DNA of 64,000 bases, taken from positions 1,488,001 through 1,552,000 of the forward strand of contig OZ025249.1 of the NCBI GenBank assembly GCA_964019135.1, given 5' to 3'. The notes under the pieces were generated by a model. It saw only the letters and a program-made list of their open reading frames with translations, did no database searches and had not been told where the DNA came from. How positions within the stretch are numbered: position 1 is the first letter of the stretch; each line of letters opens with the position of its first letter. The stretch comes from Arenicola marina. Taxonomy: Eukaryota; Annelida; Polychaeta; Arenicolidae. Below are positions 1 through 34,637 of this stretch, one piece after another. Both the position numbers and the translations under genes were made by a program.

Positions 1-3000
1 ACCAGCCACGTCGGGGACCAGAGGAGGGGTGGGTCTATATCAGGGGATGAGAACCAGCCACGACAGGGGCCAGTGGAGGGGTGGGTCTATACGAGGGGAT
101 GAGAACCAGCCACGTCGGGGGCCAGTGGAGAGGTGGGTCCATATGAGGGGATGAGAGCCAGCCACGTCGGGGCCCAGTGGAAGGGTGGGTCTATATAAGA
201 GAATGAGAACCAGCCACGTCGGGGGCCAGTGGAGGGGTGGGTCTATATCAGGGGATGAGAACCAGCCACGCCCGGGGCCAGTGGAGGGGTGGGTCTATAC
301 GAGGGGATGAGAACCAGCCACGTCGGGGGCCAGTGGAGGGGTGGGTCTATATGAGGGGATGAGAGCCAGCCACGTCGGGGGCCAGTGGAGGGGTGGGTCT
401 ATATCAGGGGATGAGAACCAGCCACGTCGGGGGCCAGTGGAGGGGTGGGTCTATACCAGCTGATGAGAACCAGCCACACGGGGGCCAGTGGAGGGGTGGC
501 TCTATATCAGCTGATGAGAACCAGCCACGTCGGGGGCCAGTGGAGGGGTGGGTCCATATCAGGGGATAAGAGCCAGCCACGTCGGGGGCCAGTGAAGGGG
601 TGGGTCTATATGAGGAGATGAAAGCCATCCACGTCGGGGGCCAGTGGAGGGGTGGGTCTATGTCAGAGGATGAGAGCCAGCCACGTCGGGCGCCAGTGGA
701 GGGGTGGGTCTATATGAGGGGATGAGAACCAGGCACGCCGGGGGCCAGGGGAGGGGTGGGTATATATCAGCTGATGAGAACCAGCCACGTCGGGGGCCAG
801 TGGAGGGGTGGGTATATATCAGCTGATGAGAACCAGGCACGCCGGGGGCCAGTGGAGGGATGGGTCTATATCAGGGGATGAGAACCAGCCACGTCGGGGG
901 CCAGTGGAGGGGTGGGTCCATATGAGAGGATGAGAGCCAGCCACGTCGGGAGCCAGTGGAGGGGTGGGTCTATATCAGGGGATGAGAACCAGCCACGTCG
1001 GGGGCCAGTGGAGGGGTGGGTCTATATCAGCTGATGAAAACCAGCCACGTCGGGGGCCAGTAAAGGGGCGGGTCTATATAAGGGGATGAGAGCCAGCCAC
1101 GTCGGGGGCCAGTAAAGGGGTGGGTCTATATAAGGGGAAGAGAGCCAGCCACGTCGGGGGCCAGTGCAGGGGTGGGTCAATATAAGGGGATGAGAGCCAG
1201 CCACGTCGGGGGCCAGTGGAGGGCTGGGTCTATATAAGGGGATGAAAGCCAGCCACGTCGGGGGCCAGTAGACGGGATGGGTTTGTATGAGGGGATGAGA
1301 ACCAGTCACGTCGGGGGCTAGTGGAGGGGTGGGTATATATACGGGGATGAGAACCAGCCACGTCGGGGGCCAGTGGAGGGGTGGGTCTATACGAGGGGAT
1401 GAGAACCAGCCACGTCGGGGGCCAGTGGAGGGGTGGGTCTATATCAGGGGATGAGAACCAGCCACGTCGGGGGCCAGTGGAGGGGTGGGTCTATACGAGG
1501 GGATGAGAACCAGCCACGTCGGGGGCCAGTGGAGGGGTGGGTCTATATCAGGGGATGAGAACCAGCCACGTCGGGGACCAGTGGAGGGGTGGGTCTATAC
1601 CAGCTGATGAGAACCAGCCACACGTGGGCCAGTGGAGGGGTGGTTCTATATCAGCTGATGAGAACCAGCCACGTCGGGGGCCAGTGGAGGGGTGGGTCTA
1701 TATCAGGGGATAAGAGCCAGCCACGTCGGGGGCCAGTGAAGGGGTGGGTCTATATGAGGAGATGAAAGCCAGCCACGTCGGGGGCCAGTGGAGGGGTGGG
1801 TCTATATAAAGGGATGAGAACCAGCCACGTCGGGGGCCAGTGGAGGGGTGGGTCTATATAAGTGGATGAAAGCCAGCCACGTCGGGGGCCAGTAGACGGG
1901 ATGGGTTTATATGAGGGGATGAGAACCAGCCACGTCGGGGGCCAGTGGAGGGGTGGGTATATATAAGGGGATGAGAACCAGCCACGTCGGGGCCAGTGGA
2001 GGGGTGGGTCTATACGAGGGGATGAGAACCAGCCACGTCGGGGGCCAGTGGAGGGGTGGGTCTATATGAGGGGATGAGAGCCAGCCACGTCGGGGGCCAG
2101 TGGAGGGGTGGGTCAATATCAGGGGATGAGAACCAACCACGTCGGGGACCAGTGGAGGGGTGGGTCTATACCAGCTGATGAGTACCAGCCACACGGGGGC
2201 CAGTGGAGGGGTGGGTCTATATGAGGAGATGAAAGCCAGCCACGTCGGGGGCCAGTGGAGGGGTGGGTCTATATCAGAGGATGAGAGCCAGCCACGTCGG
2301 GGGCCAGTGGAGGGGTGGGTCTACATGAGGAGATGAAAGCCAGCCACGTCGGGGGCCAGTGGAGGGGTGGGTCTATATCAGAGGATAAGAACCAGCCACG
2401 TCGGGAGCCAGTGGAGGGTTGGGTCTATATAAGGGGATGAGAACCAGCCAGGTCGGGGGCTAGTAAAGGGGTGGGTCTATATGATAGGATGAGAGCCAGC
2501 CACGTCTGGGGCCAGTGGAAGGGTGGGTCTATATGAGGGGATGAGAACCAGCCTCGTCGGGGGCCAGTGGAAGGTGGGTCTATATAAGGGGATGAGAGCC
2601 AGCCACGTCGGGGGCCAGTGGAGCGATGGGTCTACATGAGGGGATGAGAACCAGCCACGTCGGGGGCCAGTGGAGGGGCGGGTATATATCAGCTGATGAG
2701 AACCAGGCACGCCGGGGGCCAGTGGAGGGGTGGGTGTATATGAGGGGATGAGAGCCAGCCACGTCGGGGGCCAGTGGAGGGGTGGGTCTATATCAGGGGA
2801 TGAGAGCCAGCCACGTCGGGGGCCAGTGGAGGGGAGGGTCTATACCAGCTGATGAGAACCAGCCACACGGGGGCCAGTGGAGGGGTGGGTATATATCAGC
2901 TGATGAGAACCAGCCACGTCGGGGGCCAGTGGAAGGGTGGGTCTATATGAGGGGATGAGAACCAGCCTCGTCGGGGGCCAGTGGAGGGTGGGTCTATATA

Positions 3001-3948
3001 AGGGGATGAGAGCCAGCCACGTCGGGGGCCAGTGGAGCGATGGGTCTACATGAGGGAATGAGAACCAGCCACGTCGGGGGCCAGTGGACGGGTGGGTCTA
3101 TATAAGGGGATGAGAGCCAGCCAAGTCGGGGGCCAGTGGAGGGGTGGGTATATATCAGCTGATGAGAACCAGGCACGCCGGGGGCCAGTGGAGGGGTGGG
3201 TATATATCAGCTGATGAGAACCAGGCACGCCGGGGGCCAGTGGAGGGATGGGTCTATATCAGAGGAAGAGAACCAGCCACGTCGGGGGCCAGTGGAGGGG
3301 TGGGTCTATATGAGGGGATGAGAGCCAGCCAGGTCGGGGGCAAGTGGAGGGGTGGGTCTATATCAGGGTATGAGAACCAGCCCCGTCGGGGGCCAGTGGA
3401 GGGGTGGGTCTATATCAGCTGATGAGAACCAGCCACGTCGGCGGCCAGTAAATGGGTGGATCTATATAAGGGGATGAGAGCCAGCCACGTCGGGGGCCAG
3501 TAAAGGGGTGGGTCTATATAAGGGGAAGAGAGCCAGCCACGTCGGGGGCCAGTGCAGGGGTGGGTCAATATAAGGCGATGAGAGCCAGCCACGTCGGGGG
3601 CTAGTGGAGGGTGGGTCTATATAAGGGGATGAGAGCCAGCCACGTCGGGGGCCAGTGAAGGGGTGGGTCTATATAAAGGGATGAGAACCAGCCACGTCGG
3701 GGGCCAGTGGAGGGGTGGGTCTATATGCGGAGATGAAAGCCAGCCACGTCGGGGGCCAGTGGAGGGGTGGGTCTATATCAGAGGATTAGAGCCAGCCACG
3801 TCGGGGGCCAGTGGAGGGGTGGATCTATATGAGGGGATGAGAGCCAGCCACGTCGGGGGCCAGTGGAGGGGTGGGTCTATATAAGGGGATGAGAACCAGC
3901 CACGTCGGGGGCCAGTGGAAGGGTGGGTCTATATGAGGGGATGAGACC
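1..3948. repeat. 52-bp minisatellite, about 75 copies (intron 5 of NWD-like gene)
   Basis: A unit of 52 bp (core GTGGGTCTATATGAGGGGAT plus the CCAGCCACGTCGGGGGCCAG part) repeats from the first base to within about 25 bp of the splice donor at 3,974. Units vary by single substitutions and 1-bp indels. Multi-unit blocks recur: the variant pair around 1,131-1,190 appears again around 3,519-3,580. The array fills the visible part of the intron downstream of the exon at 3,975-4,116. Open frames across it are by-products of the repeat and are not genes. Confidence 0.97.
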
Positions 3949-3974: not shown

Positions 3975-4116
3975 CTGAGAGTAGTAGCTGGTCGGCCTCG
4001 GCCGGATCCATGGTGGCGTCCTGGACACAGAGCTCGGTGGCCTTCTGGATCAGTCTGCACACGGCCGGCCGAGACTCGCTCCAGGAGGCCTCGCCACGCT
4101 CGCCATAGATCGCTTT
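3975..4116 (-). CDS. NWD-like gene, coding exon 5 (partial gene, continues left of the window)
   Basis: This exon is bounded on the minus strand by an acceptor ending CTGCAG at 4,117 and a donor GTAGGC at 3,974. It encodes about 47 residues starting KAIYGERGEASW and ending AEADQLLLSG. The stretch VCRLIQKATELC aligns in style with the helical segment that follows the conserved N-terminal block of NACHT/WD-repeat proteins. The exon enters in phase 0 after the exon at 8,468-8,695. A second donor-like GTAGGT lies 23 bp further into the intron; using it would shift the frame. The NACHT and WD40 parts would lie beyond the left edge. The exon borders are confident; the family call rests mainly on the upstream exons. 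Confidence 0.8.
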
Positions 4117-8467: not shown

Positions 8468-8695
8468 TTGGACCGCGGTCTGGGGCTGGAGTCGGCGGCG
8501 CACCCCCTCAGCGCTCTGGAGCACGTAGACCGGGGAGTCTCCGTTATAGTCGCACTGGTACCACTGATCCAGGATGCCCGCGTCCCGGGTCTCTCGGTTT
8601 CTATGGCGACTGAGTGCCTCTCTGAGGCGGATGAACTGGTTGCTGGTAAGGGACCGTGGCGCCGCACAGTCGCCATACTTCTGACCCAGAAGTAT
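8468..8695 (-). CDS. NWD-like gene, coding exon 4
   Basis: This is a 228-bp exon (76 codons, phase 0 at both ends) between an acceptor ending TTTGCAG at 8,696 and the donor GTGAGT at 8,467. It begins ILLGQKYGDCAAPRSL and contains ILDQWYQCDYNGDSPVYVLQ. These match the NWD family pattern LLGxKYG ... LLxxWYxxDxNxVPPxYVLQP. In NWD proteins this block lies ahead of the NACHT NTPase, and the family is thought to act in signalling or scaffolding. Together with the neighbouring exons it makes a continuous family-typical protein, so the gene call is secure, though which NWD paralogue it is cannot be said. Confidence 0.9.
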
Positions 8696-9026: not shown

Positions 9027-9143
9027 AAGACAAGCTGGGCCAGCCGAGAGCATTTGACAGCGCTGAAGGTCGTCAAAACACAGCTTGCGAGAGTCACTGG
9101 TGTCCTCCCAGTCAGTTGTAACACCGAAACGAGGGTCAACTAC
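9027..9143 (-). CDS. NWD-like gene, coding exon 3
   Basis: This is a 117-bp exon (39 codons, phase 0) with an acceptor ending CAACAG at 9,144 and a donor GTAAGT at 9,026. It encodes VVDPRFGVTTDW through CFDDLQRCQMLSAGPACL. It matches the NWD family motif VVDxRWGV ... LCxxEIxxCQxxSxGPxFV, with DPRFG in place of the usual DMRWG. It joins directly to LLGQKYG in the next exon, as in family members. Confidence 0.93.
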
Positions 9144-9240: not shown

Positions 9241-12200
9241 GTGCATATGACGTCATACTCACCTAGAATTCCAGTCCATACTGATGGCGTGTCTATTTCT
9301 GTAACTGTGATGTCCTACTCACCTAGAACTCGAGTCCATACGGATGGCGGGTCTATTCCCGTAACTGTGATGTCATACTCACCTGGAACTCCAGTCCATA
9401 CTGATGGCGGGTCTATTCGCGTAACGGTGATGTCATACTCACCTGGAACTCCAGTCCATAATGATGGCGGGTCTATTCGCGTAACTGTGACGTCCTACTC
9501 CCCTAGAACTCGAGTCCATACTGATGGCGGGTCTATTCGCGTAACTGTGATGTCATACTCACCTGGAACTCCAGTCCATACTGATGGCGGGTCTATTCGC
9601 GTAACTGTGACGTCCTACTCCCCTAGAACTCGAGTCCATACTAATGGCGGGTCTATTCGCGTAACTGTTATGTCATACTCACCTGGAACTCCAGTCCATA
9701 CTGATGGCGGGTCTATTCGCGTAACTGTGACGTCCTACTCGCCTAAAACTCGATTCCATACTGATGGCGGGTCTATTCGCGAAACTGTTATGTCATACTC
9801 ACCTGGAACTCCAGTCCATACTGATGGCGGGTATATTCCTGTAACTGTGATGTCATACTCACCTGGAACTCCAGTCCATACTGATGGCGGGTCTATTCGG
9901 GTAACTGTGATGTCCTACTCACCTGGAACTCCAGTCCATACTGATGGCGGGTCTATTCGCGTAATTGTGACGTCCTACTCGCCTAAAACTCGATTCCATA
10001 CTGATGGCGGGTCTATTCGGGTAACTGTGATGTCCTACTCACCTGGAACTCCAGTCCATACTGATGGCGGGTCTATTCGCGTAATTGTGACGTCCTACTC
10101 GCCTAGAACTCGAGTCCATACTGATGGCGGGTCTATTCCTGTAACTGTGATGTCATATTCACCTGGAACTCCAGTCCATACTGATGGCGGGTCTATTCGC
10201 GTAACTGTGACGTCCTACTCCCCTAGAACTCGAGTCCATACTGATGGCGGGTCTATTCGCGTAACTGTGATGTCATACTCACCTGGAACTCGAGTCCATA
10301 CGAATGGCGGGTCTATTCGCGTAGCTGTGATGTCATACTCACCTGGAACTCCAGTCCATACTGATGGCGGGTCTATTCGCGTAACTGTGATGTCCTACTC
10401 ACCTGGAACTCCAGTCCATACGGATGGCGGGTCTATTCCCGTAACTGTGATGTCATACTCACCTGGAACTCCAGTCCATACTGATGGCGGGTCTATTCGC
10501 GTAACTGTGATGTCATACTCACCTGGAACTCCAGTCCATACTCATGGCGGGTCTATTCGCGTAACTGTGATGTCATACTCAGCTGGAACCCCAGTCTATA
10601 CTGATGGCGGGTCTATTCGCGTAACTGTGATGTCCTACTCACCTGGAACTCGATTCCATACTCATGGCGGGTCTATTCGCGTAACTGTGATGTCATACTC
10701 AGCTGGAACCCCAGTCTATACTGATGGCGGGTCTATTCGCGTAACTGTGATGTCCTACTCACCTGGAACTCCAGTCCATACTCATGGCGGGTCTATTCGC
10801 GTAACTGTGACGTCCTACTCGCCTAAAACTCGATTCCATACTGATGGCGGGTCTATTCGCGAAACTGTTATGTCATACTCACCTGGAACTCCAGTCCATA
10901 CTGATGGCGGGTCTATTCCTGTAACTGTGATGTCATACTCACCTGGAACTCCAGTCCATACTGATGGCGGGTCTATTCGGGTAACTGTGATGTCCTACTC
11001 ACCTGGAACTCCAGTCCATACTGATGGCGGGTCTATTCGCGTAATTGTGACGTCCTACTTGCCTAAAACTCGATTCCATACTGATGGCGGGTCTATTCCT
11101 GTAACGGTGATGTCATACTCACCTGGAACTCGAGTCCTTACTGATGGCGGGTCTATACCCGTAATTGTGACGTCCTACTCACCTAGAACTCCAGTCCATA
11201 CTGATGGCGGGTCTATTCCCGTAACTGTGACGTCCTACTCCCCTAGAACTCGAGTCCTTACTGATGGCGGGTCTATACCCGTAACTGTGACGTCCTACTC
11301 ACCTAGAACTCGAGTCCATACTGATGGCGGGTCTATTCCTGTAACTGTGATGTCATATTCACCTGGAACTCCAGTCCATACTGATGGCGGGTCTATTCGC
11401 GTAACTGTGAAGTCCTACTCCTCTAGAACTCGAGTCCATACGGATGGCGGGTCTATTCCTGTAACTGTGATGTCATACTCACCTGGAACTCCAGTCCATA
11501 CTGATGGCGGGTCTATTCGCGTAACTGTGACGTCCTACTCGCCTAAAACTCGGGTCCATACTGATGGCGGGTCTATTCGCGAAACTGTGATGTCCTACTC
11601 ACCTGGAACTCCAGTCCATACGGATGGCGGGTCTATTCCTGTAACTGTGATGTCATACTCACCTGGAACTCCAGTCCATACTGATGGCGGGTCTATTCGC
11701 GTAACTGTGATGTCCTACTCACCTGGAACTCCAGTCCATACGGATGGCGGGTCTATTCCTGTAACTGTGATGTCATACTCACCTGGGACTCCAGTCCATA
11801 CTGACGGCAGGTCTATTCCCGTAATTGTGACGTCATACTCACCTGGAACTCCAGTCCATACGGATGGCGGGTCTATTCCCGTAACTGTGATGTCATACTC
11901 ACCTGGAACTCCAGTCCATACGGATGGCGGGTCTATTCCTGAAACTGTGATGTCATACTCACCTGGAACTCCAGTCCATACGGATGGCGGGTCTATTCCT
12001 GTAACTGTGATGTCATGCTCACCTGGAACTCCAGTCCATACTGATGGCGGGTCTATTCCTGTAACTGTGACGTCCTACTCACCTGGAACTCCAGTCCATA
12101 CTGATGGGGGGTCTATTCCTGTAACTGTGATGTCCTACTCACCTGGAACTCCAGTCCATACTGATGGCGGGTCTATTCGCGTAACTGTGACGTCCTACTC

Positions 12201-13500
12201 ACCTAGAACTGGAGTCCATACTGATGGCGGGGCTATTCCTGTAACTGTGCCGTCCTACTCACCTGGAACTCCAGTCCATACTGATGGCGGGTCTATTCCT
12301 GTAACTGTGACGTCCTACTCACCTGGAACTCCAGTCCTTACTGATGGCGGGTCTATACCTGTAACTGTGACGTCATACTCACCTGGAACTCCAGTCCATA
12401 CTGATGGCGGGTCTATTCGCGTAACTGTGACGTCCTACTCACCTGGAACTCCAGTCCATACTGATGGCGGGTCTATTCGCGTAACTGTGACGTCCTACTC
12501 ACCTGGAACTCCAGTCCATACTGATGGCGGGTCTATTCCTGTAACTGTGACGTCCTACTCACCTGGAACTCCAGTCCATACAGATGGCGGGTCTATACCT
12601 GTAACTGTGACGTCATACTCACCTGGAAATCCAGTCCATACTGATGGGGGGTCTATTCCTATAACTGTGATGTCCTACTCACCTGGAACTCCAGTCCATA
12701 CTGATGGCGGGTCTATTCGCGTAACTGTGACGTCCTACTCACCTAGAACTCGAGTCCATACTGATGGCGGGGCTATTCCTGTAACTGTGCCGTCCTACTC
12801 ACCTGGAACTCCAGTCCATACTGATGGCGGGTCTATTCCTGTAACTGTGACGTCCTACTCACCTGGAACTCCAGTCCTTACTGATGGCGGGTCTATACCT
12901 GTAACTGTGACGTCATACTCACCTGGAACTCCAGTCCATACTGATGGCGGGTCTATTCGCGTAACTGTGACGTCCTACTCACCTGGAACTCCAGTCCATA
13001 CTGATGGCGGGTCTATTCCTGTAACTGTGACGTCCTACTCACCTGGAACTCCAGTCCATACTGATGGCGGGTCTATTCCTGTAACTGTGACGTCCTACTC
13101 ACCTGGAACTCCAGTCCTTACAGATGGCGGGTCTATACCTGTAACTGTGACGTCATACTCACCTGGAACTCCAGTCCATACGGATGGCGGGTCTATTCCT
13201 GTAACTGTGATGTCATACTCACCTGGAACTCCAGTCCATACTGATGGCGGGTCTATTCCTGTAACTGTGACGTCCTACTCACCTGGAACTCCATTCCATA
13301 GTGATGGCGGGTCTATTCCTGTAACTGTGATGTCATACTCACCTGGAACTCCAGTCCATACTGATGGCGGGTCTATTCCTGTAACTGTGACGTCCTACTC
13401 ACCTGGAACTCCAGTCCATACTGATGGCGGGTCTATTCCCGTAACTGTGACGTCCTACTCACCTGGAACTCCAGTCCATACTGATGGCGGGTGTATTCCC
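9241..13500. repeat. 60-bp minisatellite built from an exon end plus splice donor, 71 copies
   Basis: This is a strict 60-bp period for 71 units. Read on the minus strand, each unit is about 43 bp of the end of NWD exon 2 (ending GGAGTTCCAG) followed by about 17 bp of intron start (GTGAGTATGACATCACA). The outermost unit, 13,441-13,500, supplies the real exon end. Most units keep GTGAGT; those with TCCCCT or TCGCCT on the plus strand have lost the GT. Blocks are duplicated: markers at 9,721-9,790 recur 1,080 bp (18 units) later, and the GTGCCGTCC variant recurs 540 bp (9 units) apart (12,248 and 12,788). The 1,400-codon plus-strand open frame is an artefact of the 60-bp period. Confidence 0.97.
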
Positions 13501-13551
13501 GTAACTGTGGATAGACTCGCTCTGCAAGTGCATTGCGTTCCACCACAGTGT
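13463..13551 (-). CDS. NWD-like gene, coding exon 2
   Basis: This is an 89-bp exon with an acceptor ending TTTGCAG at 13,552 and a donor GTGAGT at 13,462. With the G left over from exon 1 it encodes DTVVERNALAERVYPQLR, then EYTRHQYGLEFQ. The family pattern is sDTxxERNxLxxxVYPxLxxYCxxxYGLEFQ, so this is a near-textbook match. The last 43 bp of the exon form the first unit of the 60-bp array. Only this unit has TAC (Tyr) where nearly all other units have TAG in the same frame. That singles out this donor as the functional one. Confidence 0.95.
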
Positions 13552-13690
13552 CTGCAAATAAAACTTGGGGTCTTAAGCCAGACTGAAAAAAAATAATTGG
13601 TTCGTGTCTACGACTTGTTTAGAGCACGCAAAGTAATCTGTCTAGATTTTTGGATAGGATTAACAAAGTAATTTGTTTGGTATGTAAACA

Positions 13691-16372
13691 TGGACCGCCT
13701 AAATAGAACGCCTTAGTACTCGGACACTATGGACCGCCTAAATAGGACGCTTTAGTACTCGGGCACCATGGAACGCCTTTATAGAACGCTTTAACACCCA
13801 GGCACCATTGGCCGCCTTTACGCTTCACTACTCGGACACTATGGACCGCCTTTATAGAACGCTTTAACACCCAGGCACCATTGGCCGTCTTTACGCTTCA
13901 CTACTCGGACACCATGGACCGCCTTTATAGAACGCTTTACTACTCGGGCACCATTGGCCGCCTTTACGCTTCACTACTCGAACACTATGGACCACCTTTA
14001 TAGAACGCTTTACTACTCAGGCACCATTGGCCGCCTTTACGCTTCACTACTCGGACACTATGGACCGCCTTTATAGAACGCTTTACTACTCAGGCACCAT
14101 TGGCCGCATTTACGCTTAACTACTCGGACACCATGGATCGCCTTTAATGACCGCTTAACTACTCAGGCACCATTGGCCGCCTTTACGCTTAACTACTCGG
14201 ACACCATGGACCGCCTTTATAGAATGCTTTACTACTCAGGCACCATTGGCCGCCTTTACGCTTTACTACTCGGACACCATGGACCGCCTTTATAGAACGC
14301 TTTATTACTCAGGCACCATTGGCCGCCTTTACGCTTAACTACTCGGACACCATGGACCGCCTTTATAGAATGCTTTACTACTCAGGCACCATTGGCCGCC
14401 TTTACGCTTTACTACTCGGACACCATGGACCGCCTTTATAGAACGCTTTATTACTCAGGCACCATTGGCCGCCTTTACGCTTCACTACTCGGACACCATG
14501 GACCGCCTTTATAGAACGCTTTACTACTCGGGCACCATTGGCCGCCTTTACGCTTCACTACTCGGACACTATGGACCGCCTTTATAGAACGCTTTACTAC
14601 TCAGGCACCATTGACCGCCTTTACGCTTCACTACTCGGACACCATGGACCGCCTTTATAGAACGCTTTACTACTCGGGCACCATTGGCCGCCTTTACGCT
14701 TAACTACTCGAACACTATGGACCGCCTTTATAGAACGCTTTACAACTCAGGCACCATTGGCCGCCTTTACGCTTCACTACTCGAACACTATGGACCGCCT
14801 TTATAGAACGCTTTACTACTCAGGCACCATTGGCCGCCTTTACGCTTAACTACTCGAACACTATGGACCGCCTTTATAGAACGCTTTACTACTCAGGCAC
14901 CATTGGCCGCCTTTACGCTTAACTACTCGGACACCATGGACCGCCTTTAATGACCGCTTTACTACTCAGGCACCATTGGCCGCCTTTACGCTTAACTACT
15001 CGGGCACCATGGACCGCCTTTATAGAGCGCTTTACCACTCGGACATCATGGACCGCCTTTATAGAACGCTTTACTACTCAGGCACCATTGGCCGCCTTTA
15101 CGCTTTACTACTCGGACACCATGGACCGCCTTTATAGAACGCTTTACTACTCAGGCACCATTGGCCGCCTTTACGCTTCACTACTCGGACACCATGGACC
15201 GCCTTTATAGAACGCTTTACTACTCGGGCACCATTGGCCGCCTTTACGCTTCACTACTCGGACACTATGGACCGCCTTTATAGAACGCTTTACTACTCAG
15301 GCACCATTGGCCGCCTTTACGCTTAACTACTCGGACACCATGGACCGCCTTTATAGAATGCTTTACTACTCAGGCACCATTGGCCGCCTTTACGCTTAAC
15401 TACTCGGACACCATGGACCGCCTTTATAGAACGCTTTACTACTCAGGCACCATTGGCCGCCTTTACGCTTAACTACTCGGACACCATGGACCGCCTTTAT
15501 AGAACGCTTTACTACTCAGGCACCATTGGCCGCATTTACGCTTAACTACTCGGACACCATGGACCGCCTTTATAGAACGCGTTACTACTCAGGCACCATT
15601 GGCCGCCTTTACGCTTAACTACTCGGACACCATGGACCGCCTTTATAGAACGCTTTACTACTCGGACACCATGGACCGCCTTTATAGAACGCTTTACTAC
15701 TCAGGCACCATTGGCCGCCTTTACGCTTAACTACTCGGACACCATGGACCGCCTTTAATGACCGCTTTACTACTCGGGCACCATTGGCCGCCTTTACGCT
15801 TCACTACTCGGACACCATGGACCGCCTTTATAGAACGCTTTACTACTCGGACATCATGGACCGCCTTTATAGAACGCTTTACTACTCAGGCACCATTGGC
15901 CGCCTTTACGCTTTACTACTCGGACACCATGGACCGCCTTTATAGAGCGCTTTACTACTCAGGCACCATTGGCCGCCTTTACGCTTTACTACTCGGACAC
16001 CATGGACCGCCTTTATAGAGCGCTTTACTACTCAGGCACCGTTGGCCGCCTTTACGCTTTACTACTCGGACACCATGGACCGCCTTTATAGAACGCTTTA
16101 CTACTCAGGCACCATTGGCCGCCTTTACGCTTTACTACTCGGACACTATGGACCGCCTTTATAGAGCGCTTTACTACTCGGGCACCATTGGCCGCCTTTA
16201 CGCTTTACTACTCGGACACCATGGACCGCCTTTACAGAACGCTTTACTACTCAGGCACCATTGGCCGCCTTTACGCTTAACTACTCGGACACCATGGACC
16301 GCCTTTATAGAACGCTTTACTGCTCGGACACCACGGACCGCCTTTATAGAACGCTTTACCACTCGGACACCT
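13691..16372. repeat. 73-bp composite minisatellite, about 36 copies (intron 1)
   Basis: The 73-bp unit is a head-to-tail dimer of two related halves: about 40 bp (GGACCGCCTTTATAGAACGC...) and about 33 bp (GGCCGCCTTTACGCTTAACT...). Both halves carry a CGCCTTTA core and an ACTACTC...CACCAT tail. At the left edge (13,691-13,790) only the first half is repeated, suggesting the dimer arose later. The array fills most of NWD intron 1, leaving about 140 bp of unique sequence at each end. Confidence 0.96.
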
Positions 16373-16508
16373 CTGCGGCACCTCTGTGTGAGGACTGTGG
16401 TAATCAATATTGAGTTGTGGTGCTCTATGGTGAGCGATGCCATAATGATATCGACAGGATAAATTGGACGCTCCTGGGTACAGTGGCTTAACTAACTCAC
16501 AAGCTTAC

Positions 16509-16619
16509 CTGAACATGTGCAGCAGACATATACACTGATGACCTTGCATTCCTCGTCCGGTAACGCTTCAAGGTCAACATTGCCCGTGAGCAGAGACCTC
16601 GTGTACTCCATGGCTGGGG
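16509..16619 (-). CDS. NWD-like gene, first visible coding exon (start ATG at 16,611)
   Basis: The exon runs from a pyrimidine-rich acceptor ending CCCCACAG at 16,620 to the donor GTAAGC at 16,508. The first ATG after the acceptor is at 16,611-16,609 and gives MEYTRSLLTGNVDLEALPDE, then a stretch ending KVISVYVCCTCS. This resembles the N-terminus of NWD proteins (a GNLxxLP stretch followed by VRVFISSxxxDT). The usual ISSTF is CCTCS here. The coding part is 103 bp and leaves one base that completes the Asp codon of exon 2. Because a good acceptor precedes the ATG, a non-coding 5' exon is likely further right. An upstream in-frame ATG at 16,749 is less likely. Confidence 0.85.
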
Positions 16620-20155: not shown

Positions 20156-21717
20156 AGCAGGACACTCGAGGAACACTGTATGCCACCAGTTTTGAGCTGT
20201 TGTCGTGGTCACGAGTCCCGGGAAGGTTTGGCACAGCGCCTGGCGTTGGTGATGGGTCGGCCCCCTGGGTGGCCAGTGTCTCCAGGCCCCGTCCCACGAC
20301 ACTCAGCCCAGCCATACACAGCCGTTACCTAGCAACCGGGACGCGACTTCTCCACGCCCCGCCCGCTGTGACCGACCAGCCACAACGATTATCAATAGCT
20401 GCCAGCCCTCCACCCTTCAGGTCCACGCCCCCCCCCCCCCCCACCGAGACTGAGCACTCCAGCCACGATACTGCCAGCCCTCCACCCTTCAGGTCCACCA
20501 ACCCTGCCACGCGCCCCCCCCCCCCCCCCTTTCATTCTTAGCTTTCCACTGTACTTGCCATCAATACTGGTGTTGAGCTGTGGCTCCCTTTGGGCCCTTT
20601 ACCTCCCCCGCCCCGCCAGCCCGGCAGTGCCCGACAAATGCTCCCCCACAGCGACTTAAGTCTCAACAGGCATACGCAAATAACACACACGTCGGCGCGT
20701 GAAGTATATAGGAGACCGTAGAGTGGGGTGTGGAGGGCAGCCGGGGGAGGGCACAAGCTTGCTGGCACGGCTGGCTGTGGTTTTGACCCTGTCGACTGCT
20801 AGGCGGGCCCGCTCCGTGCCAGCCAGAACGTGTCAGGCTGCTACCAACCCAGGGCCAGTTCGGGTATGCGACCATAATCTCCGCGCTCGGTTATGCTCTC
20901 CGCGGAGTTGGACTACTCCGCTCGCATACTCGAACTCACCCTAAGATCACGAGGACTTTCAACATGGCATCCTGGCCCCACAATACATCATGTATATATA
21001 TATAAAGTAGTATTTCTGCTTGCAACAAATCTGTCAATAATATTATAACAACCAGAACAAATAATTAACACAACACGTATCCGTTGATTTATTTTAGGGT
21101 ACTGTTTAACGATCTTCATGATTTGTGCAGTTCAACAAGTACAACATCCGCACATAAGCGGAAAGAATGAGTGCGCATGCTCCAAATATCTGCGCCGATT
21201 ACTCTGGTCGCATATCCGAACTCAGCCCCCACTGACTGACGGTACCCCGACAGTGGCGCCCCAGGCGGCAGGCCGGGAACCAGGACAGTGCCACGCCATG
21301 GAGGTGAGGATTGATTTTTGACACGGCGATTTTTGAACATATTTTCCTTGACGGGGAATACAATTCAACATTGTTTTATAACGTCTCTAGAGGTCAATAT
21401 TAAGGGCATCGCGAATGTCGTAAAGGTTCATTTGTCATGACTCGTGACGTCATAATCGCTCGTCCGCTTTTGCTAAATTGTTGCTAAAGTTTTATAGAAT
21501 GCAAACGTCAAAAATTGGAACTCCATTGTCAAAAGTCGAATTCGAACCCCCAACTTCCCGGTGCTGTAGCACGGCCCATTTGCGCACTTTGAGTTCGAGC
21601 TAAGGCCAGATTGGGTATATGCTACACCACCTCTATCCACCAGGACAAGATGTTGTCAAGTTTTCGTGCCACAGCCGAGCACTGAACATCAACGATAGTT
21701 TAGTTTAGTTTAGATTA
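20156..21717. other. Non-coding interval between NWD-like gene and LINE
   Basis: No convincing exon is seen. The interval holds two long C tracts (about 20,425-20,445 and 20,514-20,529), each next to a copy of CCACCCTTCAGGTCCAC. There is an AT-rich stretch around 20,990-21,020. A weak tRNA-like block may lie on the minus strand at about 21,535-21,590 (a GGTTCGAATTC box) and could be a SINE remnant. If the NWD gene has a non-coding first exon, its promoter should be in the right part of this interval, but nothing in the sequence fixes it. Confidence 0.5.
20858..20935. repeat. Small palindromic element with a third copy of its arm nearby
   Basis: The left arm GTTCGGGTATGCGACC is matched in inverted form by CTCGCATACTCGAAC at the right end, and CTCCGCGGAG lies near the centre. 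A further inverted copy of the arm (GGTCGCATATCCGAAC) lies at 21,206-21,221. This may be a tiny palindromic MITE, or the inner half of a 360-bp one ending at the third arm. Confidence 0.5.
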
Positions 21718-23883
21718 GTGGTGTGCTCCCTCCCATCTGTAACTTAGATCATAGTATCATATACTGTGAGATATCTAATGTGGTAACGCCAAGACTCGCT
21801 ATAAAGCGGAAAATTTATAACTATAAAAGAGTAGATTTCGAAGGCTTAAGATCACAGCTAACACATGCACCATGGCATGTTGGTCAAGGTGTATTTGATG
21901 ACGTTGAAGATTTTGTCACTTACTGGTACGCTCTCTACGGAGAACAACTGAGTGTTTTATTCCGAGTAAGGAAATAGTTATTAATTCGAGAGACAAACTT
22001 TGGATGACGGCAAATATCAAGCGCCTTATCCATAAAAGAAACAGGCTGTTTAAACGCTATGCTAAGTCTAAAACAGAATTGGCACACAATCGGTATTTGT
22101 TAATCAGGCGTGAAGCTCATTTGGAAATCGACAAAGCCAAACAACAATATTTCCGTAGGCTCACTGAGCGACTGCAGGATCCCGCAACGGTAAGCAAAGA
22201 ATATCACAACATTGTGAAGTGTTTTTTCTCTGGTAAGGTAGATAAAGGCATACCATCTATCATCCATGATGGGGTGAGCCACGCGGACGCACGATCCAAG
22301 GCCAATGTCTTTAATGAGTATTTTGCGTCAAATTCTACGCTCCCGAGTGTTGAAGAGGGTTTCGCACTTCCCCCACTCAACTTGAGTAGAATGCCCACCT
22401 TATGCACCATAAGCTTTACTCCTGTCAAAATTTTCGGTGTCTTGAGACAGCTTGATCAAAACAAAGCAAATGGCCCTGACAATATTAGCAATAGGATGTT
22501 AAAGGAGACCGCGGAAGTTATATCTGAGTCGCTCTCCAACCTGTTTAGCAAAAGCATGTGTGATTTTACATTTCCTGCTCAATGGAAAGATGCCAATGTT
22601 ACGCCAGTTTTTAAGAAAAAAGACAAGCAACGAATAGAAAATTATCGCCCCATATCTCTGCTCTCATGCGTGGGTAAGGTTATGGAACGGGTAGTTTATA
22701 AGGAGTTGTACGAATTTTGCCTCAGTAATAATCTCCTGACATGGCCTAATGCCGGCTTTAAAAAGCTAGATTCCACTACAAATCAGCTGATATATATTAC
22801 TCATAACATTTACGAATCGTTAGAGCACAACCGCGATTGAGTTATGGTTTTTATTGATGTGTCAAAAGCATTTGATAAGGTGTACCTCGAGCGTCTATTG
22901 CATAAAGTCGAATCATTGGGTATCAAAGGATATTTGTTGAGGTGGCTCAAAAGTTACCTATACTGTAGGCGGCAGAGAGTGGTCATAGAGCGTTGCACCT
23001 CGGAGTGGAAATTATAAATGCCGGAGTGCCTCAGGGCTCTATACTGGGGCCGCTCCTGTTTCTCATCTTAGTTAACGATATTGTCGAGGGCCTTGAATGC
23101 GAGGCTTATTTATTTGCAGATGACACGTCTCTATTTTTTGTACTAGATTTTAATAACGATGTCAAAATCATTAATCATGATCTAGAACGACTATCTCAGT
23201 GGGCCAAACAGTGGCGGGTAACGTTCAATCCTGATAAAACTGAATACATGGTATTTAGCAAAAAGTTATCGCGACCAAATGAGCTCGATCTATATCTGGA
23301 CCATTCGAAACTCCGGCAAGTAAGAGATCACTGTCACCTTGGTGTAACCCTATCAGACTCAATGTGCTGGGACCTGCATATAAATAACACTATTATTAAG
23401 GCCGAGAAATCTGTTGCTCTACTAAGGCGTCTTCCTAAACAGGTAGGACCCAGAACTAAATTAAATGTTTATAAAACATATGTTCGACCTAAAATGGAAT
23501 ACTGTACTGGTGTCTTCCATGGCAATCTTTCCAAAACCCAATCAGAGAGGTTGGAAATTGTACAGCGGCAAGCCCTTTGATCTGTTACTGGGGCATACAA
23601 GAGTACGTGACATACCGAACTGCTGAAAGAAGTTGGCATTGAACCACTCGCTCTCAGACGTAAATACCTAAGTCTGTGCATTTTGTATAAAATGGTTAAT
23701 AGTCTCACTCCGATATATATGTCTTCTCTATTACCTGATTTGATTTGGAACTCAATCAGAGAGTGAAACTCCTTGCCAAGCAACGTCATTATCTCTTTTT
23801 AAGTCACTGTATAGGAAGTCATTTTTTTACCCCCTGAGGCTGTTTACCACACCAGACTCCGCTTAGGCCTGAGCGCACTTAAT
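21718..23883 (+). mobile_element. LINE (CR1/Jockey-type), 5'-truncated, main part
   Basis: The visible sequence begins inside the end of the endonuclease domain (LPPICNLDHSIIYCEIS, then YKRVDFEGL) and runs through the reverse transcriptase. RT motifs in order are NKANGPDNISNRMLK, ENYRPISLLSCVGKVMERV, FIDVSKAFDKV, AGVPQGSILGPLLFLI, YLFADDTSLFF (catalytic FADD) and the WRVTFNPDKTEYM region. ORF1 and most of the endonuclease are missing. The frame is damaged by a shift near 21,960, TGA for an expected Trp at 22,838-22,840, a shift near 23,015, and TGA at 23,578-23,580 plus later stops. It is a dead copy. The clade is judged only from motif style. The last base belongs to the target duplication of the Polinton inserted after it. 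Confidence 0.9.
23878..23883. repeat. Target-site duplication, left copy (CTTAAT)
   Basis: The 6-bp CTTAAT directly precedes the Polinton and is repeated directly after it (38,781-38,786). Polintons make 6-bp duplications. With one copy removed, the flanking LINE frame reads on without a break (LGLSALNGPRKRYGF), confirming the exact insertion point. Confidence 0.95.
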
Positions 23884-27064: not shown

Positions 27065-27107
27065 GTGGGGATACCCACCGGCTTAACATCATTCGAAATC
27101 AGTCATC

Positions 27108-30100
27108 ATGGAGAACGACGCTACCTGCTCGCTGTGTCAAAGATTCTGCGGCAACCGCCATAATCTGGATCAACATATGAGAGCCAAACATACTGTTTGT
27201 GAAAGAGAGAGTTTTAAATGTAAAGACTGTGGAAAAGAAATGGATAATGGCCATAATTTGCGTGTGCATGAAAATACTCACGCTCAACGCAGACCCAAAC
27301 ATACTGTTTGTGAAAGAGAGAGTTTTAAATGCAAAGACTGTGGAAAAGAAATGTATAATGGACATAACTTGCGTGTGCACGAAAATACTCACGCTCAACG
27401 CAGACCCAAACATACTGTTTGTGAAAGAGAGAGTTTTAAATGCAAAGACTGTGGAAAAGAAATGTATAATGGACATAACTTGCGTGTGCACGAAAATACT
27501 CACGCTCAACGCAGACCCAAACATACTGTTTGTGAAAGAGAGAGTTTTAAATGCAAAGACTGTGGAAAAGAAATGTATAATGGTCATAACTTGCGTGTGC
27601 ACGAAAATACTCGCGCTCAATACAGACCCGCGGTGACATTTCCGTGCTCACAGTGTGGGAAAATAATGTCAAACGAATACAACTTGCGGGTTCACGAAAA
27701 TACTCATCGTCATCCCTACCATTGTGGACAGTGTGGTCTAGGAGTGAAAACTGCTATTGATCTTCGGGCTCACCAACATCAAGAACATGGAGATCACACT
27801 TGTTCACGTTGTAACGTAAAGTTTATGACTGTCCAACATTTAAGAGAACACACATGTCACAAAGAGGTTGAGTCTACCGCACAGGCTTGTCAACAAGGCG
27901 GTGGATCTACCGCCAAACGACAGAAATCAACCCACATCAAATGTCGTATATGTGGATGTATTTGTGATAATTGGAAAGAATTGTTTGCTCATCGACGTGA
28001 GCTACATCAAAGCGGTGCTGGCTTGCAAGACCTCCCTTTTCCGACAGAAGGTGCTCCATGGATAGAAGAAGGTACGATCAATAATTCGTTACATGATGTC
28101 TATAATAGACACTCTTCCGTCATATTGGAGCAGCATCGTATGAATCCTGAAAGGATGACCGATACCTTTAACTTTCCTGTTGACCCTTCCCATTTTCACG
28201 AACGTGATTTAATGGAACATTTTCGATTGATTATGGAACGTGAGGAGAAGGCTGTAAAAGTCAATGCTGCCGCTGGATTCATTTTACGTCACCGTGAGAC
28301 TGGAGAACTAAGATATTATTATCCTCATCTAAATAATCAACTTTTTGAAACTCCACTCACGCTCAGTACGCCGTCTGATCTCGCTCGTATTCAGCGAGTG
28401 GTTCATCGGTTACACTTGTTGGATCTTTTGTTACGAGACCGACCTGATACCAAATGGACTTTGGTTTGTATAACGAACATTCGTTATACTGTAACCAAGA
28501 TGGCTTACACCATGGGAGCAGCTCTTGAGTTACCAGAATACCTCATCAACAAGCGGAGTATTTTAACGATGACATGCAATGCCAAGACTGGAAAACCATA
28601 TGAAGATGACAAATGCTTCTTTCGTTGTTTGGCTTATCTTCGTCAAAATTCGATGCGTTCTACTATCGCCTCGACGGATCACTTACTGAAACAATGGTGT
28701 GAGTGGCAGCGCCAACACGATCCCGATCACGCTCAAACCCCTGAACAATTCACAGGCATAGACCTAGATCTCCCCGCTTTGGAATCGTTGTTTCATGTAA
28801 ATATTTACGTTTACGATCTCTCGAGGGAAGATATCGCTACATCTATCTATAGGAGCTGTGGACAGCATGGAATGGATGGACAGCGTAATGATTTATATCT
28901 AAACATGCACGATCATCATCTGTCCTACATTAACGATATGAAAGCCTTCGCAAGAAAATTTACATGCGACATGTGTCAACGTCATTTTGATCGGGCGGAT
29001 AATTTTAAACGTCACCAACGCACATGTACGTCCAAAAGCAAGTATATGTACCCAGGAGGTTACTATAAACCGTCAGAGACTTTGTTTTCACGTCTGGATG
29101 AACTCGGCATTTCAGTAAGTGAGCGTCAGTTTCCTTGGTTCGCGACATTTGACTTTGAAGCAGTATTGAAGCGATCCGAAAACAATTCACCCAGTGGCAA
29201 ATTGCATTTTCAGTCCACACATGAAGCCATCTCTGTCGCGGTGGCATCTAATGTCCCAGGTTATACGGAACCCGTATGTTTTGTAGACAGTCACCCGGAT
29301 AACTTGGTGGAACGGATGTTTCAATATTTAATCGACATGCAAGAGAAAAGCAACGAACTTGCTCGAAAAAAGTGGGACGATGTATTTCAAGAACTATCGC
29401 AAATGATGGAAACATATGAGTTGATGCAACCAGATATGGAGAGTGACGATGAAGACAGAACAGCAGATGGAGAGGAATCTGAGAGACGTGGCGAGAGCAA
29501 TCCTTTTATCGCTGCTATAGGTGAAGTCACGGGAAAACTGAATAACTTTTGTCGTCAACTCCCAGTGATCGGCTTCAATTCCGGCAAATACGACTTGAAT
29601 CTAATTACACAAACAGCTTTCCTGAATCATATGTTTAACGACGAATATAAGGGTGAAGATATACCTACAACAAATGTTGATGAGGAAGGAGAGGAGAGAC
29701 CTAAAGGGTTTGTTGTTAAGCGTAATAACGCTTACATGTGCATGTCTAATGACAGATTCCGCTTCCTGGATATGACACAGTTTTTGCCACCAGGAACATC
29801 CTATGATAAATTTCTAAATACGTTTGGAACTGAACAAAAGAAGTCATATTTTCCATACGAATGGTTGGATGATTTTAGTAAATTAAGCCACACCTGTCTT
29901 CCCGAAGCCGATGCCTTTTATTCAAACTTAAAAGGACGAAATATACTTGGAACTACGCCACAGGAAATAGAAATAAATTACTTATCTTTGCAAGCTGTTT
30001 GGGAAGAAGAAGACATGAAAACCATGTCCGACTTTTTACAATGGTATAACAAGTTAGATGTAGGACCATTCGTCGAAGCAGCCGATAAGTTACGACAGAT

Positions 30101-32372
30101 GTTTTGTGCACAAGGAATTGATCCTTATAAGGAATGCATATCAGTTCCCGGCGTTGCACGACGACTGTTAGACAAATGTGCGCAAGGACTCAACGCGTCT
30201 TTCGCCATCTTCGGTACGCGAGATAAAGATATGTACGACAAGGTTCGCGCAAACCTCTTTGGGGGATTGTCTGTTATCTTCACGAGATACCATGAGGCAG
30301 ACAAGACCCACATACGCTCAAACCCAGAATTTACTTGTAAAAGTATTTTCGGGTACGACGCAAACGCACTCTATTTGTCATCATTTATGGAAGAATTCCC
30401 CGTGGGACCCTTTTACCGCCGGCGCATGGAGGATAATTTCAAGTGTCAACGCTCCACCAGATATCTCAGCATGTTCCGATGGATGGATTGGTTGCAGAGA
30501 GTCAACCCTGAACTCCACATTCATCACCAACTGAACCAAGGCCGAGAAGTGAGAGTCGGAAACTATAGACTGGATGGTTTCAACCCGACGGACAATCAAG
30601 TGTATGAATTTCACGGTGAGTGCACTCGTGTGAATGGGTTATGGTTATGTGTGGATAGGTTGACTCGGCTAGCTATCTGTACTCAAAAACTTGATGAGTA
30701 ACGACAAGTTAAAGTACAGTTTTTACTGTGTAACTAAAGATGATGCATCAGTATATAACGTGTTGCAGGCATTGTAAAATAGAAACTGATGTTAGTTATT
30801 ATTTTGTTCCTTTCTACAGGCTGTTACTACCACGGACATGACTGCGTCACCTACGCTGATGACGGAAAGGAGACAGAGAGACGAATTCGTTTAAAGAAAA
30901 CGGAAAAACGCACCCGAATGCTAAGGAAGTTAGGTTATGAAGTTGTTGAAAAGTGGGAGTGTGACTTTCAGAAAGAGATAAAGCAGTCTGAAAGGTTACG
31001 TGCTTTTGTCGCCGAACCTCATCCCCCATTTACAAAACAACACGGAGATGGTGTGGTGTCAACAGAGACTCTGTTGGCGGGTGTACGAGACCAGACTTTC
31101 TTCGGGTTCATGGAGGTGGATATTGAAGTACCCTCAACATGGACAGATCCCTCCATGAAGATCAAGGCGGGGGGAATGAGTCCTAAGACGTATTTTTCAG
31201 AGTTTCCACCATTAATATGTACAAGTAATATTGAATTCGAGCACTGGGGACAACACATGCAGAGTTTTGTGGAGGAACATGACTTACCGAAAACTAGCAA
31301 ACGGTTATTGGTGAGTGGATTGAAAGCTAAGCGATTGCTCATTACATCTCCCTTACTTAAATGGTATTTGGATCACGGACTGCACGTCACCAAAATTTAT
31401 GACGTGGTGGAATATGCCCGTATGAAGTGTTATCTTCCCTTTGCAGAGAAAGTAACAAAAGCCAGACGTGCGGGTGATTGTGATCCCAAATTTGAATTAT
31501 TGGCTTCACTGCACAAGTTACAAGGAAATGCGGCTTATGGGTGTTTATTGTTAAACAAAACAAAATTCCGAAACGTGATGTTTTCCTTTGAAAAGGTAAA
31601 AGCGTGTCAAAAAGTGAATGATCCACTGTTCAGAAACTTGAATGAGATCACATCAGACATGTTTGAACTGGAAATGGCTAAAGGTAAAATCTCCATGGAT
31701 TTACCCATTCAAAACGCCAGGTTTGTTCTACAAAACGCTAAGAAGCGAATGTTGCAGTTTTATTTCGACTTTCTACGAGTTAGAGTAGATTATAGAAAAT
31801 TTGAACTGTTAGAGACGGATACAGACAGTCTATATTTTGCACTATCCGAGAAGGGTTTGCAAGATGTTCTTCTTCCCGAACACAAAGAGAGTGTGTTGAA
31901 TGATTTGTATGGACACTGCGGTGAAGAAGACATCAATGCCGATCGGTTCTATTTTCCGAGAGAGTGTTGCGATAGACACAGAAAACACGACAGTCGCACA
32001 CCGGGTCTGTTTAAAGCGGAATACTGCAACGGTCATGTATTTTATGGCTTGTCATCCAAGACATATCTTGTTGTTGGAGATGATGGTTCTTATAAAATGT
32101 CATGTAAGGGCATCCAAAAGAGCAGAGTGAACAATCCTCGAGAAATATTTCAAGATGTGATAGACAACAAAGCAACCCGTTCTATTACCAATCGCGGTTT
32201 CCTTGTTAAAAAGAATCAGATTTTGACTTACTCGCAAGATAGAGCCGGATTTGCTTATCTGTATGTCAAAAGGCAGATACAAGCTGATGGAATACATAGC
32301 CTTCCCCATGACATCACGCTATGTCCATATAGTGATGCGAAGCCAGAAACATGTGAAGACGTTTTAGTGTGA
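27108..32372 (+). CDS. Polinton protein-primed DNA polymerase B with zinc-finger N-terminus (two adjacent frames)
   Basis: The gene lies in a 1,197-codon frame (27,108-30,701) and a 527-codon frame (30,789-32,372). It starts with C2H2 fingers, four of them in nearly identical 111-bp (37-residue) tandem units between 27,187 and 27,630. More fingers follow, then the DDKCFFRCLAYLR block common in Polinton polymerases. Exonuclease-type motifs come next (TFDFEAV and GFNSGKYDLNLI), then polymerase motifs FGYDANALYLSSF, NAAYG and TDTDSLYF. The interval between the frames has intron-like borders, and some Polinton polymerase genes are reported to contain introns. Role: replication of the element from its inverted ends. 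Confidence 0.93.
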
Positions 32373-32619
32373 AGCCATTGATGAATGTATTGCATCGGAA
32401 TAAGTTCGTAAGATAAGATCGTAGTATACACATGTGAGTAATTTTAGTTATAATGCTGGAATGTTATGTATCGCGAATTGTATGTTATATATCATCTTGG
32501 TAGATATAAATGTTAGTTTGTATGTTTTGTGTCGAATGTTTTGTGGTACATAATAAATATAATCTACTCTTTATTTGATTCTTTATTTCACATAATCGCA
32601 TAGACATAACTTCACTTAT

Positions 32620-33018
32620 TTAATGGTACTCTTTGGCCAATTGCTCAATGACATCAGTCAACCACATGTAATCGGGCGTTGTCGAAGGTGGTTCTTCATT
32701 CGTGGGTTCAACTTGTGGCATTTTATTCGTCTTACATACGGGTGAGGAAACTTGTACTGTCTCACATCGGGTTGGGACGACATTTGTCTGAGAAGGGGGC
32801 GGGTCCACTTCTACCGTCTCGCGTCCAATCAGATTTAGGGCTCTGTCGATGGCCGCCGCGTTGTCCGCTACAGCTCGCCACGCTTGAGAAGTTAATTTTA
32901 CGCGACGGCCTGATGGTAAAGAGATGTATACCAGAAAGCCATTTTTGCTATTTCTTTCAATCTCCGCAAAATGGTCTTCGCCTAAAGGCAACTTTATACG
33001 ATGAAACTTGACCTCCAT
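32620..33018 (-). CDS. Small PC4-like Polinton protein (132 aa)
   Basis: The N-terminal half carries NGFLVYISLPSGRRVKLTSQ followed by AWRAVADNAAAIDRAL. This matches the shape of a PC4-type DNA-binding domain (basic strand, G.r..Lt...W, then a helix). The second half is Pro/Thr-rich and probably disordered. It ends convergently with the polymerase gene. A TATAAAA on its own strand lies about 50 bp upstream (33,067-33,074). The frame is intact. The fold assignment is inference. Confidence 0.55.
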   Translation of the reverse strand: MEVKFHRIKLPLGEDHFAEIERNSKNGFLVYISLPSGRRVKLTSQAWRAVADNAAAIDRALNLIGRETVEVDPPPSQTNVVPTRCETVQVSSPVCKTNKMPQVEPTNEEPPSTTPDYMWLTDVIEQLAKEYH

Positions 33019-33188
33019 GATGTGTGTGATGCTTCAAACTGCTGTCACATGCGTTATTGTCAAGCGTTTTATAACCAACCAACTACGACGCTTCCATTTG
33101 TGCTGACATCTGCGATATTTTCCATTATTTCATAACGATGACTCATCTCGAACCTGCTAGAAGCACGCTCATATAGTGATGTCAGTTC

Positions 33189-33196
33189 TATAAATA
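33189..33196 (+). promoter_or_regulatory. TATAAATA box (Polinton)
   Basis: TATAAATAGC in the spacer between the minus-strand PC4-like gene and the rightward genes. A second copy follows 69 bp later within a partly duplicated context (GATGTCA-TTCTATAAATAGC). Confidence 0.45.
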
Positions 33197-33257
33197 GCAC
33201 ACGGTGACTCATCATCTTTTGACTGTAACGGCAACATATTACAGGTGATGTCACTTC

Positions 33258-33265
33258 TATAAATA
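33258..33265 (+). promoter_or_regulatory. TATAAATA box (Polinton)
   Basis: Second copy of the duplicated TTCTATAAATAGC context. It lies 66 bp before an ATG at 33,324 that starts a small relic gene. Confidence 0.45.
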
Positions 33266-33323
33266 GCTTATAACCAACTGAGCGTTTGACGCGCTCAGTC
33301 CACACCATCTGTTACATTTTGAA

Positions 33324-33605
33324 ATGGGCTTGCTCTGGAGTCAAAGTAGTGAAAACACTTTTCAGTCTCACGCCCAATGGAAGGAAGGTGTTAAAATTAC
33401 AAATTCATTGAAAGAGTACCAACACATTCTAAAAAAATTTTAGCAGACAATACTTGGCATGATGGACGTCGCGAAATATTGAGAATATTTACCCATGATG
33501 TGTGTGAATCTTTGAAACAGAAAGGACGCATGCGCGTTGCCGAACAAATTCAAGCGTACTATATAACCTTCTTGAAAGATCAGAATGAAAAGCATCACGA
33601 TGAGT
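33324..33605 (+). pseudogene. Small Polinton gene relic before the ATPase
   Basis: An ATG 66 bp after a TATAAATA box opens a short frame beginning MGLLWSQSSENTFQ. The start MGLLWS would fit an N-myristoylated small protein. Coding-like sequence goes on up to the ATPase start. It is broken. The family is not recognised. Confidence 0.4.
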
Positions 33606-34286: not shown

Positions 34287-34637
34287 ATGTCCAACAAAGT
34301 GAAGGAAGAGAGCGATTTTCTCAGCTTAGTGGCCAAGGCAGATCCCCAACAAAGACAAGCACTCCTTTCAACAGCTACATCCAACCAAGTTCTTGTTTTG
34401 CGTGAAATCATTATAAATATTTTACGTAGACGTTTTGCATTGTCAGCTGAACAGATTCAAGCGCTGAATCCATTCAAACGCTTTTTACGACTTTTATCTC
34501 AATCCTCATCAACATTGTCAGCCTCCAGGACTCTTTTGAGACGACATAGTAAACATATTCAGATACTTCTTCAGACGGTGTGGTCTCACTTGCATCCACT
34601 GCTACGCGATGAAGAAAGCCGTTCTGATACCTATTGA
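34287..34637 (+). CDS. Small conserved Polinton protein (116 aa)
   Basis: Starts MSNKVKEESDFLSLVAKADP and includes QQRQALLSTATSNQVLVLRE and FKRFLRLLSQ. Helical proteins with an 'LL..a.p.QrkaLL.t.t..Q...L.Ei..Nil' pattern recur in Polintons. Their role is not known to me. It starts at its own ATG 46 bp after a TATAAATA box, and its end overlaps the next gene by 29 bp in another frame. It looks intact. Confidence 0.6.
   Translation: MSNKVKEESDFLSLVAKADPQQRQALLSTATSNQVLVLREIIINILRRRFALSAEQIQALNPFKRFLRLLSQSSSTLSASRTLLRRHSKHIQILLQTVWSHLHPLLRDEESRSDTY

Follow-up and report, generated by a model that had tools for sequence, protein, structure and literature searches.

We analysed a window of 64,000 nucleotides from the annelid Arenicola marina (assembly GCA_964019135.1, contig OZ025249.1, positions 1,488,001 to 1,552,000), in which a minus-strand gene with similarity to DUF4062 and NWD proteins carries a long minisatellite at the 3' end of its second exon. 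Positions given below are those of the window unless another sequence is named, and a slash marks a splice junction. Five exons of this gene were read from their splice signals, those other than exon 2 also with tblastn matches. The coding part of exon 1 (16509..16611) starts at an ATG, reads MEYTRSLL...VYVCCTCS and ends at the donor TTCAG/GTAAGC. Exon 2 (13463..13551, 89 nt) encodes (D)TVVERNALAERVYPQLREYTRHQYGLEFQ; a TTTGCAG acceptor precedes it before 13,551, a CAG/GTGAGT donor closes it at 13,463/13,462, and its end is matched by junctions in paralogues (L071, L072). Exon 3 (9027..9143, 117 nt) reads VVDPRFGVTTDWEDTSDSRKLCFDDLQRCQMLSAGPACL (VVDPRFGV...GPACL) between the acceptor TTCAACAG and the donor GTAAGTA. 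Exon 4 (8468..8695, 228 nt; ILLGQKYGD...LQPQTAVQ) has a TTTGCAG acceptor and the donor GTCCAA/GTGAGT. Exon 5 (3975..4116; KAIYGERGEAS...DQLLLSG) follows the acceptor GACTGCAG and measures 142 nt with the first of two candidate donors, CTCTCAG/GTAGGC, the second, CCCTCAG/GTAGGT, lying 23 bp further on. All five exons connect in one reading frame and are bounded by splice signals; the exon 2/3 join reads GLEFQ/VVDPRFGV, and exon 2 is flanked by introns of 2.96 kb and 4.3 kb. We regard exon 2 as real because its acceptor, the frame-continuing exons 1 and 3, and a paralogue on C14 that lacks an intron at this place all agree.

The joined 227-aa peptide matches DUF4062 (PF13271) over residues 27-123, across the exon 2/3 junction, at 22.7 bits, which is slightly below the Pfam cut-off of 24.7. 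We tentatively place the host gene in the NWD family, the name it also bore in the original prediction, which had been made from the letters of this DNA. Four weaker paralogous matches (C13:4.75M, C5:15.20M, C19:34.69M and C2:21.34M) are found no more than a few kb from same-strand NACHT matches. Any NACHT and WD parts of the host gene itself would lie further on, as the adjoining 20 kb outside the window consist of one 52-bp array. This minisatellite occupies at least 24 kb of intron 5, with about 76 copies at window positions 1-3946 and about 385 more filling C2:1468001-1488000 (L013, L012). Intron 1 holds a 73-bp array (13689-16371), whose unit, as read in 16280-16400, we presume to resemble part of a tRNA-Ser/Leu (CCGAGTGGTAAAGCG); it is possibly an amplified tRNA-derived element.

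The minisatellite at exon 2 was called by Tandem Repeats Finder (TRF) at 9,248-13,509 as 71.0 copies of a 60-bp unit with 91% matches and 0% indels, which bears out the 71 copies counted earlier. Aligned to the end of the exon, the array comprises 71 units at 9246..13505 on the minus strand. Each of them consists of the last 43 bp of exon 2 followed by the first 17 bp of intron 2, and the predicted layout of 43 bp of exon, GTGAGT and 11 bp of intron proved exact. The claim that the edge unit supplies the true exon end also stands on sequence grounds, as this unit alone runs on into exon 2 and is free of in-frame stops; it lies at 13446..13505, however, and the position first given for it, 13,441-13,500, was about 5 bp out of register. 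Most units do keep an intact donor, as had been stated: the full CAGGTGAGT is present in 49 of the 71, GTGAGT in 55 and GT in 58, edge unit counted (48 inner units alone have the full CAGGTGAGT, and 57 have GT). Seventy-one copies are far more than chance could produce. The array was found at a single place in the 867-Mb genome, where neither a second haplotype nor dispersed copies were found among the best candidates scored.

The 60-bp unit, at 3 x 20, preserves the frame of the exon. In that frame the edge unit has TAC (Tyr) at a codon that is TAG in 69 of the 70 inner units, and the remaining inner unit has TAT there and TAA further on. An in-frame stop is thus present in all 70 inner units, the edge unit being the sole one without, and reading through past the edge donor runs into a stop after nine codons. 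Usable protein should therefore come only from the edge donor, which we consider the likely real 5' splice site. The original prediction mentioned neither these stops nor the distribution of donor losses: GT is gone from 13 units, all among the distal 39 (p = 1.4e-4 on the assumption of independent units, which these are not). Mean pairwise difference per unit is 3.9 in the proximal 32 units compared to 5.9 in the distal 39. Blocks of five units (300 bp) differ by 1 mismatch when offset by 9 units (540 bp) and by 4 when offset by 18 (1,080 bp), against a median of 27. These near-identical blocks fit unequal exchange or slippage, and the origin proposed in the original prediction gains support from them. 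Selection on the inner donors, looked for as column conservation, was not visible; donor columns are barely better conserved than other columns of the unit (3.9 versus 4.5 non-consensus units per column). At the founding junction the exon side reads TATCCA/CAGTT and the intron side GACGTCA/TATG, with CA alone common to both.

Minisatellites built on exon-intron boundaries are known from amphioxus as mirages. They have been described for the globin genes BflGb6 and BflGb9 (PMC3087553) and for PGBD5 (PMC3902484), and both papers cite further cases in Adh and troponin C. Amphioxus mirages are reported to vary among alleles and somatically and not to disturb splicing. They have in common with the window array a unit that spans the exon-intron boundary, a genuine junction beside the copies (here as the edge copy) and splice signals in many of the copies; the PGBD5 mirage, too, lies at a splice site and has a 60-bp unit (PMC3902484). 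Copies of both 5' and 3' boundaries occur in amphioxus, and donor-side and acceptor-side arrays were both found in the present genome. Judged by these structural features, the array is a mirage of the amphioxus type. Copy numbers differ, reaching 71, about 103 and about 168 in the present genome versus 6 and 3 in the two haplotypes of BflGb6 (PMC3087553). The comparison with amphioxus drawn in the original prediction thus holds for the anatomy (PMC3087553, PMC3902484); the host is an annelid, so that amphioxus serves as an analogy, and the contrast with the cephalochordate hosts of known mirages is one of range and not of structure. Our search of listings of the open-licence literature for reports beyond amphioxus showed no annelid mirage. 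Mirages, reported in these papers from a few amphioxus genes, are now seen in several genes of an annelid.

Two other known systems resemble the array in part. Earthworm metallothionein, like the host gene, is an annelid gene with long intronic minisatellites, whose monomers average 178 and 181 bp; these monomers lie inside the first intron, and the available portion of the report, which notes exon-4 duplications in one clone that are absent from transcripts, does not describe a unit of exon end plus donor (PMC12783039). In the model of Rogers, as discussed in PMC3087553, introns are gained by duplication around AG/GT proto-splice sites. There, as here, tandem duplication at an AG/GT junction yields extra splice signals; unlike such intron gain, the window array multiplies an existing intron end and shows no new intron position.

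The whole genome was searched with a pattern of three CAGGTRAGT donors at set gaps, the reversed pattern serving as control. The resulting counts are positions rather than arrays, so that a few long arrays weigh heavily. With gaps of 20-50 there were 6,768 matches versus 1,426 for the reversed control, and with gaps of 51-81 there were 4,802 versus 2,065. Near genes, donor 9-mers should in any case outnumber their reverse. When the donor pattern was made more stringent, the whole genome contained 7 matches, in two places, versus 1 for the control, which gives no firmer number of arrays. Nine arrays were followed up among the matches listed, which cover the first 22.5 Mb of C1 (the first 1.8 Mb for gaps of 20-50). 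Six of the nine begin where a coding exon probably ends, one lies about 140 bp from such an end, and in two the edge was not reached. Firm identities were obtained for three of the six: an ALDH1L1-like gene (L056-L057; 39-bp unit, about 168 units; E = 2.2e-25), a HUWE1-like gene (L059; 53-bp unit, 103 units; E = 1.5e-18, with an alignment continuous across the predicted splice) and an exon with a TSP1_ADAMTS domain (L063; TSP1 at 1.8e-6, over the cut-off). The remaining three also stand at likely exon ends. The unit of L060 shares just the last three exon bases, and its Pfam identity falls below the cut-off, as do the cupredoxin matches of L062; the exon of L065 may belong to DSTYK, an identity confirmed by neither Pfam nor PDB search. 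The array 140 bp away is that of L064, where the nearby exon has a similar 3' end and no identity, and the two edges not reached are those of L058 and L066. L058 (5-9997) contains adjoining donor-like arrays, one with CACCG/GTAAGT (27 bp) and one with GACAG/ATAAGT or GACAG/GTAAGT (42 bp, present about 213 times within the stretch). The matches listed for gaps of 51-81 comprise 8 arrays in 22.5 Mb, of which 3 fall inside the first 1.8 Mb; by rough extrapolation, the genome may contain a few hundred strict donor arrays.

Mirages were also present among arrays not picked for a donor, namely in 3 of 38 (the 43 TRF-listed arrays minus the window array and four fetched for their donors; not each was inspected in depth). 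These are a second mirage in the HUWE1-like gene (L059, 1-3393; 78-bp unit, 43 units, donor CAG/GTACGT); an acceptor-side mirage in the ALDH1L1-like gene (100-bp unit, 65 units, 98%), whose exon matches residues 359-400 of 10-formyltetrahydrofolate dehydrogenase; and, in an NWD paralogue located on C19 (L005, 35-185), a short acceptor-side mirage with a few copies, at an intron position absent from the window gene. About 43% of the 152 kb examined, which is a biased sample, consists of TRF arrays.

The end of exon 2 in homologous NWD genes had been proposed as a check on the prediction, and it gave a divided answer. Two of the listed tblastn matches end at the exon 2/3 junction and four cross it, one of those with a stop. 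Among the four paralogues read, those on C12 and C13 keep the junction, and those on C14, which reads through as LDFQLVDLRWG, and C19 have no intron at this place. Homologues lacking the intron do not contradict the reading of the window gene. In the C12 paralogue (C12:3,447,052; L071) the homologous exon ends at the same codon, REKHGLEFQ/GTAACA, and the GLEFQ junction carries an array of its own, with an 89-bp unit in at least 5.5 copies to the end of the stretch read. The paralogue at C13:14,516,312 showed no array within the 450 bp read. Compared with the unit of the host gene, the C12 unit is alike in its exon part (none of 500 shuffles reached the score) and dissimilar in its intron part (88% of shuffles did). 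The host-gene and C12 arrays thus probably arose independently at one junction, as these comparisons suggest. Alternatively, an old shared array may have had its intron sequence replaced.

We consider it highly probable that the array is a mirage minisatellite born by tandem duplication across the 3' end of the exon, and that the edge donor is chosen by exon definition. The breakpoints suggest a duplication of 60 bp that linked intron position +17 to a point 43 bp before the exon end, with the 2-bp CA as microhomology. The duplication would have been tolerated, as the exon-side copy keeps an intact exon end and donor and the extra copies fall into the intron; with the junction intact in this way, the change should be almost neutral as long as splicing uses the exon-side donor. 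Growth and homogenization would have followed by unequal exchange or slippage in multi-unit blocks, a step made visible in part by the repeated five-unit blocks. Under exon definition, the acceptor of exon 2 would be paired with the donor closest to it, at a distance of 89 nt, and the inner donors would be mostly ignored. Any slip to an inner donor would bring in the stop nine codons on and, as expected, nonsense-mediated decay. When exon-definition minigenes offered a choice between two identical donors spaced by 52 nt, the one closer to the upstream acceptor was favoured, and both exon 2 and the eight other mirage exons with readable ends (87-166 nt) fall within the 50-250-nt class of that study (PMC9225289).

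A wider proposal, which we advance only tentatively, is that exon-intron junctions are hotspots of minisatellite birth in this genome. Some recurrent mutational process linked to transcription or splicing would then have copied exon ends and their donors into introns at hundreds of genes, and twice independently at the NWD junction, and much splicing would rest on exon definition among dozens of donors.

Several points weigh against these interpretations. Use of the edge donor is read from sequence, and under intron definition it is the downstream donor that is favoured (PMC9225289), which in this gene would mean an inner donor. In the ALDH1L1 array no stop occurs for about 190 codons past the donor, and in the 78-bp HUWE1 array none before the end of the stretch read; a stop-codon lock as a general safeguard is rejected on these grounds. 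Matches to the reversed donor pattern, used as control, are not few (1,426 and 2,065), and the check for an exon at the edge was made on donor-bearing arrays alone. A strict acceptor-side pattern showed no excess, with 181 matches versus 353 for the reversed control, and its listed rows all fell in one stretch of C1. Two of the three mirages not picked for a donor sit in genes fetched for another mirage, so this sample is biased. As to hotspots, with 43% of the 152 kb in TRF arrays, some arrays will cross junctions by chance.

Other explanations of the donor-bearing units were weighed against a mirage with an edge donor set by exon definition. The inner donors might be used appreciably, with decay of the stop-bearing transcripts and an allele-variable copy number that tunes output, and both the full CAGGTGAGT kept in 49 of 71 units and the stop in every inner unit would suit a poison-donor rheostat of this sort. 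We judge it improbable, however: conservation of the donor columns barely exceeds that of the others, GT has gone from 13 distal units, two further mirages stay free of stops over many units, and the 69 identical TAGs are explained by one ancestral stop spread through homogenization. Lack of visible selection on the donor columns also bears on a role for U1. U1 protects transcripts against premature cleavage and polyadenylation (telescripting), and inner donors acting as U1 binding sites could guard the long intron in this way, or could stabilize exon definition. The 55 GTGAGT sites, edge included, spread over a 4.3-kb intron would accord with this, but a donor motif is missing from the consensus of other long arrays in the host gene, among them the 52-bp array in intron 5, and we find the proposal quite unlikely. 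That the array is an ordinary intronic minisatellite with a donor-like 9-mer by coincidence might be argued from the abundance of TRF arrays in the biased sample and from the existence of reversed-motif arrays (1,426 matches); it is nevertheless very hard to credit when 43 bp per unit match the end of a coding exon precisely as far as the junction and the pattern recurs at other exons. Translation of the array as a tandem peptide repeat of 20 aa per unit, to which divisibility of the unit length by three lends itself, is rejected with near certainty, as stops occur in all 70 inner units in the exon frame and in 59 and 42 of the 70 in the other two.

Elsewhere in the window, open frames at 27087-36800 (zinc-finger ORF, packaging-type ATPase and DDE integrase) looked, by eye, like those of a Maverick/Polinton-type element, and a fragment resembling a long interspersed nuclear element (LINE) reverse transcriptase was seen, also by eye, in plus-strand frames at 21714-23577. 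A second gene, on the plus strand, has a likely exon end at NTNPVTQ/GTGAGT near 46,903, and about 13 bp past this end is a 32-bp array whose unit contains no donor (46840-47510). The mitochondrial genome (C762; 15,942 bp) holds cox1 and yielded 25 tRNA calls with ARAGORN, three of which are out of place and probably spurious. Its gene order, with frames named by eye, is cox1, cox2, atp8, cox3, nad6, cob, atp6, nad5, nad4L, nad4, rRNAs, nad1, nad3, nad2. Two rRNA-sized spaces divided by tRNA-Val lie between tRNA-Met and tRNA-Leu, and about 1 kb separates tRNA-Arg from tRNA-His. The placement of the rRNAs and trnV is the same as in clitellates (PMC4866719). This gene order indicates an annelid host and not amphioxus.

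Mirages in several genes of an annelid, the longest with about 168 copies, point to a general process, one that may have been overlooked since long arrays need long reads. Such arrays could mislead gene annotation. They bear on how splice junctions can be copied harmlessly and on whether new introns are seeded by the copies, and their near-identical donors provide a natural experiment on the choice that the spliceosome makes between equal 5' splice sites.

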